A stretch of 64,000 bases of DNA from Chloroflexota bacterium. Lineage in GTDB: Bacteria; Chloroflexota; UBA6077; CF-72. Of the stretch, positions 33,077 through 36,515 are shown piece by piece (the first letter of the stretch is position 1; every line of letters starts with the position of its first letter). Both the position numbers and the translations under genes were made by a program. The stretch lies in assembly GCA_016191465.1 (NCBI GenBank), contig JACPOP010000015.1, forward strand, positions 274,261 to 338,260. Reading direction: 5' to 3'. Under the pieces are notes generated by a model. It worked only from the letters and a program-made list of their open reading frames with translations. It did no database searches and was not told where the DNA came from.

Positions 33077-33184
33077 CATGTCCCGTACGCCGCGTGCATC
33101 CCGCGCCGACAACTGCGACGCGGACGGTACGTCCCATGCGATGGGTGGCTCTGGAGTGTGGCTACACTGCGCGCACGATCAGCC

Positions 33185-34087
33185 ATGCGCGTGAAATTCT
33201 GGGGCACTCGCGGCTCGGTGCCCACCCCCGGCCCCAGCACCGTCCGCTATGGCGGCAACACGTCGTGCGTGGAGGTCACCACGAGCCGCGGAACTTTGCT
33301 CGTGCTCGACAGCGGGACGGGCATTCGTGAGCTGGGCCTGGACCTCATGGCACGCGGGAAGCAAGTGGACGGACACCTGTTCCTGGGGCATACCCACTGG
33401 GACCACATCTCCGGCTTTCCGTTCTTTACCCCTGCCTTCATACCAGGCAACAGGCTCCGCATCTACGGCGCGCGAGACCTCGACCGCTCGCTCCAAGACG
33501 TGCTGGCGGGGCAGATGCACTACACCTACTTCCCGGTGCCGCTTGGCGACCTGCGGGCCGACATTACGTTCCACGAGCTGGACGAAGGCGAGCTGCGCGT
33601 CGAGGATGTGCGGGTCCGAACGCAGTACCTGAACCATACCGCCGTGACGATGGGCTACCGGCTGGAAGCCGACAATGCATCGGTCGCCTACATCACCGAC
33701 CACGAGCCCTACGGTCTCTCATTAGTGCCGCCCGGCGGAGAGACTCAGCCCGAGGTAGGCCGCGGACTGCGGGGCGATTTCATCCACGGCGGCGACCAGC
33801 GCCTGATCGACTTCGTGCGTGGCGTGGACCTGCTCATCATGGACACGCAATACACGCCCGAGGAGTACCAGGCCAAGCGCGGCTGGGGACACTCCAGCAC
33901 TGACTACGTCACGGACCTTGCAGTCGAGGCGGGCGTCACCCGGTACGCGCTCTTCCATCACGAGCCGACGCACCCGGATGATGGCGTTGACGCGATGGTG
34001 CAGTACTGCCGGGACCGCGCCGCTGAAAGCGGCTCCACCCCCCTGGAAATCTTTGGAGCGCAAGAGCGCCAGACGATCGAGCTCTGA
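33185..34087 (+). CDS. MBL-fold metallo-hydrolase
   Basis: The 300-residue protein starts MRVKFWGTRGSVPTPGPST, typical of the cyclic-nucleotide phosphodiesterase/ribonuclease Z-like branch of the metallo-beta-lactamase superfamily. It has the metal motif LGHTHWDHISGFPFF (HxHxDH), a second-metal His in TQYLNHTAVTMGYR, Asp in AYITDHEPYG and MDTQYTPEEY, and a final His in YALFHHEPTHPDD. The substrate is unknown. The ATG at 33185 is preferred because homologues begin at MRVKFWGTRGS. A TACACT box at 33163-33168 is 16 nt upstream. The gene is convergent with the dpgC-like gene. Confidence 0.92.
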   Translation: MRVKFWGTRGSVPTPGPSTVRYGGNTSCVEVTTSRGTLLVLDSGTGIRELGLDLMARGKQVDGHLFLGHTHWDHISGFPFFTPAFIPGNRLRIYGARDLDRSLQDVLAGQMHYTYFPVPLGDLRADITFHELDEGELRVEDVRVRTQYLNHTAVTMGYRLEADNASVAYITDHEPYGLSLVPPGGETQPEVGRGLRGDFIHGGDQRLIDFVRGVDLLIMDTQYTPEEYQAKRGWGHSSTDYVTDLAVEAGVTRYALFHHEPTHPDDGVDAMVQYCRDRAAESGSTPLEIFGAQERQTIEL

Positions 34088-34102: not shown

Positions 34103-35437
34103 TCAAGGGGTGCTGGAGCGCTCCTTCACCGTCCGCTGGTGGGCGTTCCAGTGGCGCTCCAGGTTGTCGATCAACTGCGGGCTGAAGTGGCAGGACGCTT
34201 GCTCCCGGGCGTACACGGCCATGTACTGGCGAAAGACATCGATCGGCTCCTGGCCGACTCGGATCGCTTTGCGGTTGCCCGAGGCGCTCACGACGCCTGA
34301 ACCGGTGAGTGACTCCACCGCGCGGTGGAGTGCCGCATCCATCTCGCCCGGCGCCACGACCTCGTCGCACAGCAGGCGTCCGTTCGGCGAGTCGGCCGCA
34401 AACTGTTCGTCGAACAGGATGGCCGAGCGGGTCAGTCGATCTCCCACGAACCGGGGCAGACGCAGGTTCGCCGCCCCGGGGATGATCCCCTCCTTGCGTG
34501 CCGGAAGGCTGAAGTAGCTGCCGCGCTCGGCCAGCACGCGGTCCATCACCAGCAACAATTGACAGCCGCCGCCGATGGCGAACGATTCGACGGCCGCGAT
34601 CCACGGCGTTTCGAGCGTCGCTTCGATCTCTCCCGCGTTGAACTCGGGGCCGCTGACGCCCCGGTAGAGCTTATTGACATAACCCAGATCGCGGTTCAGG
34701 TAGAACAGGTATGACAGTTGCCCGTGGTAAATCTGGGTCAAGTTGATGCCGGCGTTGAACACCCGTCGCCCCTGGTACTTGGGGTGGTCGACCTCGGCCC
34801 CGCGCAGGACGCCGACCTCGATGGATGGGTCCAGGATCACCAGGTCGGTGGCGATCTCCAGCGAGTCGGTGGTGGAATCGTCCTCCGCGTTCAAGTAGCC
34901 GGGGTTCGCGTGGAACACGTACCCGGCGCGCCCTTCACGCTGCACGACTGTGCTTCCAATGTCGGCGCGTCCGGTGCGGACGAAGTGCTCCAGGCGTTCG
35001 AGGGATTCGTCCCTGGGACGAAGCATGGCATGGAGGAGGTGCAGCCCCGCGCGCGGGTGTGACAGCACCGCCGAGAGGAACAGGCCCTGGTCTACCTCGA
35101 CGCCGTCCTTGTCCTTCTGCAGGCGCTCGCGCTCGGCTGCCACCTCTGCCCGGCTTGGGGTTAGCCCCGGGAACCACTCGGCCGCGGTGTAGACCAGCTC
35201 GTCGGCGCGCAGGAAACGGGTGTAGCCGGACGTCAGGCTGCGATACACATCCTCGACGTACTGGCGGAGGAAGGCCGCTCGCGCGGACCGCGCTGCTTCG
35301 ATGATCGTCGCGGCATCGGCTGCTTCCGAGGCGCTCCGGAGCGGTTTTCGGGGCAAGGCGTCCAGCACCGCCCGGCCACCCGCGAGCAGGGACGCGAGAC
35401 GCTCCGCGTGTGCCTGCACCCCGCCAGCGGTCGTCAT
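34103..35437 (-). CDS. DpgC-like (3,5-dihydroxyphenyl)acetyl-CoA 1,2-dioxygenase family protein
   Basis: The 444-residue product combines an N-terminal helical domain (about 1-185) with a crotonase fold (about 190-420), the plan and length of DpgC. Characteristic stretches are DKDGVEVDQGLFLSAVLSHP, YQGRRVFNAGINLTQIYHGQ, RDLGYVNKLYRG, ETPWIAAVESFAIGGGCQLL and FSLPARKEGIIPGAANLRLP. DpgC needs no metal or flavin: it uses O2 to convert the arylacetyl-CoA into an arylglyoxylate plus CoA, within the dpgABCD pathway of glycopeptide antibiotics. None of dpgA, dpgB or dpgD is present here, so the natural substrate is uncertain. It lies 22 nt after an E1-alpha gene on the same strand, probably one operon. 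The ATG at 35437 matches the expected N-terminus. Confidence 0.85.
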   Translation of the reverse strand: MTTAGGVQAHAERLASLLAGGRAVLDALPRKPLRSASEAADAATIIEAARSARAAFLRQYVEDVYRSLTSGYTRFLRADELVYTAAEWFPGLTPSRAEVAAERERLQKDKDGVEVDQGLFLSAVLSHPRAGLHLLHAMLRPRDESLERLEHFVRTGRADIGSTVVQREGRAGYVFHANPGYLNAEDDSTTDSLEIATDLVILDPSIEVGVLRGAEVDHPKYQGRRVFNAGINLTQIYHGQLSYLFYLNRDLGYVNKLYRGVSGPEFNAGEIEATLETPWIAAVESFAIGGGCQLLLVMDRVLAERGSYFSLPARKEGIIPGAANLRLPRFVGDRLTRSAILFDEQFAADSPNGRLLCDEVVAPGEMDAALHRAVESLTGSGVVSASGNRKAIRVGQEPIDVFRQYMAVYAREQASCHFSPQLIDNLERHWNAHQRTVKERSSTP

Positions 35438-35459
35438 GGCCGGCGCGAGCGGATGCGCT

Positions 35460-36515
35460 TCATGTGGTGGGGCCGTACACGTCACGAGTAGCGGCGCTCG
35501 GCTCCGGGAGCGGCGCATCGCGCGCTTCCTCGATAGCCTGCGCAATCTCGCTCGTGGCTCGGGCTTCCAGCGCCGCCTGCCGCGCCTTGTCCAGCAGGCC
35601 TTGCCCGCGGAGGTAGGCGGCGTACGCCGGGAGTGGATCGTGCGCCGTCGCTTCCCGGATCTCGGCCCGCGTGCGCAGGTCGCCGACCTGGCTCGTATGC
35701 TGGCCGATGCGCGACACCTTCGCCTCGATCAGCGTCGGGCCCTGCCCCCGACGAGCGCGTTCAACGGCCGCGCAGGTGGTCGCGTACACCGCCAGGGGGT
35801 CGCCGCCGTCGACGGTGGTGCCCAGCACGCCGTACGCCGCTGCTCGCTCGGCGATGCTGCCAACGGGAGACTGCTTCTCGAAGGGCACGGAGATGGCGAT
35901 GCCGTTGTTCTCGCAGAACAGCACCACCGGTACATGGTGCACCGCCGCGAAGTTCAGGCCTTCGTGGAAATCGGACTTGGAGGCTCCGCCGTCGCCGAAG
36001 TAGACGATCGTCACCGCGTCCTCACCACGGACCTTTGACGCGAGCGCGGTCCCGACAGCGTTGGGGATCTGCGTTCCCACCGAGCCCGAGATGCTCATCA
36101 GGTTCAGGCCGCGGTGCGCCCAGTGCCCCGGCAGGTTCTTGCCGCCCGATGATGGCCCCGCCGCCCGCCCAAACGAATCCAACATGATCTCGCGCGCGGT
36201 CATGCCGCGGGCGTAGGCCGCGGGGATGCTGCGGTAGAAGAGGTAGGCGAAGTCGGTGGGCCGCAGCGCGCGGATGCTGGCCACCTGCGCCGCCTCGTGC
36301 CCATCGGCCGGAATGGCAACGTCCAGCGTGCCCTGGAAGGCGAGACGGAGGCAGGCCTCGCTGATCCGACGCGCCACCACCATGGCGCGATACAGGTCAA
36401 CAGCCTGCTGGTCTGTCAGGCCGACCTCGCGGTGGCGCGGAAGCAGGCTCGGCGGGCCATCCCCACCTGATGGAACCCGTGCCTGGCGGCGGGTCGCCGC
36501 AACCGTTGGGCTCAT
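35460..36515 (-). CDS. Thiamine-diphosphate-dependent 2-oxoacid dehydrogenase E1 component, alpha subunit
   Basis: The 351-residue protein matches E1-alpha of pyruvate/branched-chain 2-oxoacid dehydrogenases: LYRAMVVARRISEACLRLAF, IPADGHEAAQVASIRALRP, FYRSIPAAYARGM and the ThDP motif GDGGASKSDFHEGLNFAAVH ending in ENNGIAI. E1 decarboxylates a 2-oxoacid and normally works as alpha2beta2; no beta-subunit or E2 gene is present here. The ATG at 36515 follows GGAG. The next gene downstream (22 nt) is dpgC-like, whose expected product is an aryl 2-oxoacid, a substrate type that E1 could decarboxylate. A winged-helix regulator precedes it by 88 nt on the same strand. Confidence 0.9.
   Translation of the reverse strand: MSPTVAATRRQARVPSGGDGPPSLLPRHREVGLTDQQAVDLYRAMVVARRISEACLRLAFQGTLDVAIPADGHEAAQVASIRALRPTDFAYLFYRSIPAAYARGMTAREIMLDSFGRAAGPSSGGKNLPGHWAHRGLNLMSISGSVGTQIPNAVGTALASKVRGEDAVTIVYFGDGGASKSDFHEGLNFAAVHHVPVVLFCENNGIAISVPFEKQSPVGSIAERAAAYGVLGTTVDGGDPLAVYATTCAAVERARRGQGPTLIEAKVSRIGQHTSQVGDLRTRAEIREATAHDPLPAYAAYLRGQGLLDKARQAALEARATSEIAQAIEEARDAPLPEPSAATRDVYGPTT

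Follow-up and report, generated by a model that had tools for sequence, protein, structure and literature searches.

A Gene for a Putative DpgC-like Cofactor-free Dioxygenase beside a Solitary E1-alpha Gene in a Chloroflexota Bacterium: Neighbouring Genes of Its Relatives Point to Arylacetate Metabolism

DpgC is among the very few enzymes that use O2 without a metal or an organic cofactor, and it is known from antibiotic pathways. In the window, the whole 64,000-nucleotide stretch of Chloroflexota DNA that was analyzed, a gene for a DpgC-like protein follows a gene for the E1-alpha subunit of a 2-oxoacid dehydrogenase. The locus raises the question of whether this is a DpgC-type oxygenase outside antibiotic clusters and whether the two neighboring gene products act in one route. 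The original prediction had proposed a two-gene operon in which the E1 component acts on the product of the dioxygenase. Both open reading frames were present at the predicted coordinates, and the 22-nt gap from the E1-alpha stop to the dpgC start was confirmed (Table 1).

Table 1. Features of the dpgC-like locus in the window
Feature	Position	Strand	Length	Basis
Metallo-beta-lactamase-fold (MBL) protein	33158..34087	plus		PF12706, synteny
DpgC-like cofactor-free arylacetyl-CoA dioxygenase family protein	34103..35437	minus	444 aa	NF042432, PDB 2NP9/5KAG, signature residues, tree
Gap, E1-alpha stop to dpgC start	35438..35459	minus	22 nt	
Solitary 2-oxoacid dehydrogenase E1-alpha	35460..36515	minus	351 aa	PF00676, TIGR03181

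The DpgC-like open reading frame had NF042432 (DpgC) as its best NCBIfam match (444 bits, E 5e-133), below the equivalog cut-off of 530 bits. The best PDB match was DpgC itself, (3,5-dihydroxyphenyl)acetyl-CoA 1,2-dioxygenase (2NP9/5KAG, E about 5e-103), with 46% identity over almost the full length. All eight inspected signature residues were kept (E189, H222, I235, R254, G296, Q299, A319, and I324, in the numbering of the 5KAG chain as counted from the alignment); we take these to be active-site and oxyanion residues of DpgC. The PDB entries used are variants, differing at A319 and V425. Phylogenetic analysis of 23 sequences placed the window protein in a branch of 16 non-actinobacterial members (support 100/100), separate from the actinobacterial groups of glycopeptide DpgC and phenylglycine PglA. 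The protein did not fall among ordinary enoyl-CoA hydratases, and the predicted assignment held: judged by its sequence, the window gene is a true relative of DpgC, in a well-supported branch outside glycopeptide DpgC. It differs from DpgC in its score, its branch, and the lack of dpgA, dpgB, dpgD, or NRPS genes nearby. DpgC-like genes were sparse: among the sampled genomes, they occurred in 8 of 301 from the phylum, 4 of 16 from the order, and 9 of 42 from another family. A literature search found no published assay of any enzyme from the non-actinobacterial branch. We abandoned predicting the substrate from E189, R254, and Q299, since these positions do not vary even in PglA, for which a substrate without ring hydroxyls is proposed. 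An AlphaFold model of the DpgC-like protein (five sequences only) had a mean pLDDT of 51 and was discarded.

As predicted, the partner genes dpgA, dpgB, and dpgD were missing around the window dpgC. Queries taken from the open reading frames around dpgC in the Nonomuraea dpg cluster matched only the DpgC-like gene in the window, plus receiver domains for an unrelated response regulator, and no relative of the three partners was found within the window. A GGAG-type ribosome site lies upstream of E1-alpha, and none was visible before dpgC. Neither a promoter-like site in the dpgC/E1-alpha region nor a terminator-like site between the two genes was found. The proposed operon is inferred from the spacing, and the gene order in relatives detracts from it: the two genes are not adjacent there, and the 22-nt spacing is specific to the window genome.

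The locus was compared with those of other genomes, among which, as for the window genome (78% complete), are metagenome-assembled genomes. Two genomes of a sister genus in the same family (G161 and G225) carry MBL, dpgC, paaK (phenylacetate-CoA ligase) on the opposite strand, and E1-alpha, with paaK occupying the place of the 22-nt gap; their E1-alpha proteins show 65% identity to that of the window. A further sister genome (G145) has MBL, PaaK, and E1-alpha and lacks dpgC. It keeps a small open reading frame resembling that between MBL and dpgC of G225 and also carries PaaA/PaaC-type genes for phenylacetyl-CoA breakdown. The MBL protein is a conserved neighbor in the family (68% to the G161 counterpart), and a homologue (50%) adjoins a solitary E1-alpha in G065. 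The window assembly (78% complete) yielded no PaaK at the locus or elsewhere, and a paaK remnant was sought between the window E1-alpha and dpgC and not found. Within the family, each of the three genomes with dpgC has an E1-alpha close to it; PaaK stands between the genes in G161 and G225, and G145 has E1-alpha without dpgC. Because of this proximity, and because a more distant E1-alpha lies near PaaK and dpgC in G317, some link between E1-alpha and dpgC is still conceivable, although the case for it is weak and partly contradicted. Probably, E1-alpha stands beside the window dpgC by an accident of gene order. In L070:1583-4419, a solitary E1-alpha gene is followed by one for a small lipoyl-domain protein and by PaaK in convergent orientation; this contig also carries dpgC, ~3.3 kb past PaaK.

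Gene neighbors were then counted at the 16 other non-actinobacterial loci (15 in the tree plus the fragment L026). PaaK adjoins dpgC in six of them (L010, L020, L021, L025, L065, and L069) and lies 3.3 kb away in L066; L025, L065, and L069 are from the other family that was sampled. PaaK was assigned where TIGR02155 was the top-scoring model, at 455-636 bits in each case and so always below its cut-off of 646. The adjacencies come in at least three different gene orders, and the chance of so many is far below 1e-9 (about 1e-10 or lower) in a naive estimate that ignores the relatedness of the loci. Another acyl-activating enzyme is encoded near dpgC in 3 of the 16 (L023, L024, and L034); in L023 and L024, both of that other family, it is an adjoining AMP-forming acyl-CoA ligase. 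A ThDP decarboxylase-type gene (BFDC/acetolactate-synthase-type) adjoins dpgC in L024 and L069 and lies 2 kb away in L008. In Alphaproteobacteria, L010 has the order PaaK-dpgC, and L008 combines the ThDP gene and an aldehyde dehydrogenase with dpgC. No paper treating DpgC and PaaK together was found in the literature search. Several further features were observed at these and related loci. L069:4253-9212 (another family) is a compact, consecutive run of ThDP enzyme, DpgC-like gene, and PaaK, with a putative cyclase (PF04199) before it. On the Tistrella mobilis plasmid pTM3 (L034:6002-10125), an AMP-forming ligase and an acyl-CoA dehydrogenase precede the DpgC-like gene. A DsbA-type thioredoxin-fold protein is encoded directly upstream of dpgC in L066:7584-8045 (PF01323), with a similar sequence in L022:6229-6708, and another open reading frame takes this position in L068:7586-7969.

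A downstream ThDP step has a published parallel. VemC-VemE-VemF, like the Ken enzymes, were proposed to convert an arylglyoxylate to the aldehyde and then to the acid via a ThDP decarboxylase and an aldehyde dehydrogenase (PMC5132015). This combination with a DpgC homologue (venemycin, kendomycin) resembles L008, L024, and L069. However, its substrate comes from DpgA and its product primes a PKS, whereas the relatives studied here usually have PaaK or another acyl-activating neighbor, and the window has no adjoining ThDP decarboxylase. The idea that DpgC products feed a ThDP enzyme was therefore supported for the family, by these three loci and the Vem precedent, but not for the window E1-alpha.

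Taken as a whole, the neighbors of the DpgC-like genes suggest that this branch serves in arylacetate metabolism away from antibiotic clusters. In our best explanation, held with moderate confidence, the window gene would encode a DpgC-type oxygenase of a non-actinobacterial branch, and E1-alpha would not be dedicated to the DpgC-like step. By analogy with DpgC, the enzyme would remove a proton from C2 of an arylacetyl-CoA and let O2 react directly with the resulting enolate; the products would be free CoA and a 2-oxo acid, e.g. phenylglyoxylate. The substrate would probably be supplied by a neighboring acyl-activating enzyme, often PaaK, in most relatives with an informative context, and in a few relatives the 2-oxo acid would probably be decarboxylated by a neighboring ThDP enzyme. 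A cofactor-free, O2-dependent route from arylacetate to arylglyoxylate, and perhaps on to the aldehyde, is plausible outside antibiotic clusters given its precedent in the kendomycin and venemycin clusters. As a more tentative proposal, several lineages (among them the window relatives and some Alphaproteobacteria) might have a short aerobic route of this kind, unconnected with antibiotic clusters: PaaK might form phenylacetyl-CoA, a DpgC-type enzyme with O2 and without a cofactor might convert it to phenylglyoxylate, and a ThDP enzyme might decarboxylate the latter to benzaldehyde. If true, this would be an O2-using counterpart of the anaerobic route from phenylacetyl-CoA to phenylglyoxylate and could take the place of the phenylacetyl-CoA epoxidase pathway. 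If the branch beside PaaK genes oxidizes arylacetates, it would bring DpgC chemistry into general aromatic-acid metabolism and provide further enzymes for study and for arylglyoxylate production.

The E1-alpha protein resembles 2-oxoacid dehydrogenase E1-alpha subunits in its E1_dh domain (PF00676, 242 bits) and in the ThDP motif GDGG...ENN, kept in the alignment. It differs in its TIGR03181 score (285 bits, below the cut-off of 411) and in loop A, the phosphorylation loop, where its clade has lost the D-x-YR part (HTSQVGDLRTR versus HSSADDDSRYR). It differs further in its lack of partners. No E1-beta, E2, or E3 gene lies next to it, and neither beta nor E2 was found beside the E1-alphas of G161, G225, and G145. 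An E1-beta partner was also not recovered elsewhere: the window genome (78% complete) encodes four other E1-alphas of the two-subunit type, each paired with its own beta, and no unpaired E1-beta was found in it. The incompleteness of the assembly possibly accounts for this absence and for that of PaaK. In E1 enzymes, the beta subunit completes the ThDP site. In a larger tree, the window E1-alpha grouped with the same-family alphas and a solitary alpha from G193, a genome in which dpgC is absent (support 100/99).

The pairing of a DpgC-like enzyme with E1 is already published and is not new. In the pgl operons for phenylglycine in Streptomyces, the DpgC-like PglA is encoded with E1-alpha and E1-beta, a thioesterase, and an aminotransferase (PMC7089894, PMC10685826), and the E1 was proposed to act before PglA, converting phenylpyruvate to phenylacetyl-CoA (PMC7089894). 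Both directions of a DpgC/ThDP link thus have precedent, because the pgl E1 was proposed upstream and the Vem ThDP step downstream. Like the window locus, the pglA-pglE operon (pristinamycin I) has genes for both a DpgC-like enzyme and an E1-alpha, and the order pglA-pglB-pglC occurs in L033 and L035. An E1 with the window alpha subunit could likewise act upstream, making arylacetyl-CoA from arylpyruvate for the DpgC-like enzyme, with PaaK as an alternative supply of the CoA ester. This would explain why G145 has PaaK and E1-alpha without dpgC, alongside the PaaA/PaaC-type genes; since G000 lacks PaaK, another source of arylacetyl-CoA would be needed there. We nevertheless consider an upstream role unlikely. 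The pgl operon lies in an NRPS cluster and includes genes for E1-beta, a thioesterase, and an aminotransferase, whereas the window pair has none of these and no matches to PglC, PglD, or PglE nearby; the window DpgC-like protein and E1-alpha fall in branches other than their pgl counterparts, the latter outside the PglB group; and solitary E1-alphas exist without dpgC or PaaK.

Another alternative to the favored oxygenase reading concerns the DpgC-like protein itself, whose branch might have switched to another reaction of the crotonase fold. Its score and separate branch would fit such a change, as would positions 238, 298, 320, and 425, which are unlike those of characterized DpgC. However, 238 and 425 are as in PglA, and the window protein keeps all of the signature residues, three of which (E189, R254, and Q299) are missing from the DpgD relative that served as outgroup; we therefore regard a changed function as rather improbable. 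Least probable by our estimate, and very unlikely, is the downstream role of the original prediction, in which arylglyoxylate from the DpgC-like enzyme is decarboxylated by E1 to aroyl-CoA or an aldehyde: it draws on the 22-nt adjacency, on the ThDP enzymes of another family encoded next to dpgC in L024 and L069, and on VemC-VemE-VemF (PMC5132015), but PaaK separates the genes in the sister genus, G145 and G193 have E1-alpha despite lacking dpgC, and the alpha subunit is without a beta subunit and has lost the loop A motif.

For the E1-alpha, apart from the DpgC-like oxygenase, a role in trans is the preferred reading: it belongs to a beta-less lineage of the order and probably works with an E1-beta/E2 encoded elsewhere. 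Solitary E1-alphas were also found in G065, G097, and G217, of which G065 and G097 have no dpgC, and a tree test (p-AU 0.144) neither rejected nor established one common origin for all of the solitary E1-alphas. Further solitary E1-alphas, from several families of the order, were seen in L084, L085, L086, L087, and L088, with no beta, E2, PaaK, or dpgC beside them. Alpha-less beta-E2 loci occur in G161, G225, G193, and G065, and in G161 and G225 the beta subunit is fused to the E2 catalytic domain. A split complex acting in trans is the simplest reading of the two sets of loci together, the pairing being one that we infer, and would represent a separate case of a split 2-oxoacid dehydrogenase. 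The E1-beta/E2-catalytic-domain fusion was observed in L109:8393-10126 (578 aa) and L110:6660-8489 (610 aa), each with a lipoyl E2 after it and E1-alpha not adjacent; it is a possible partner of the solitary E1-alpha. L111 and L112 contain beta-E2-lipA operons without the E1-alpha that is present at the same place in L046.
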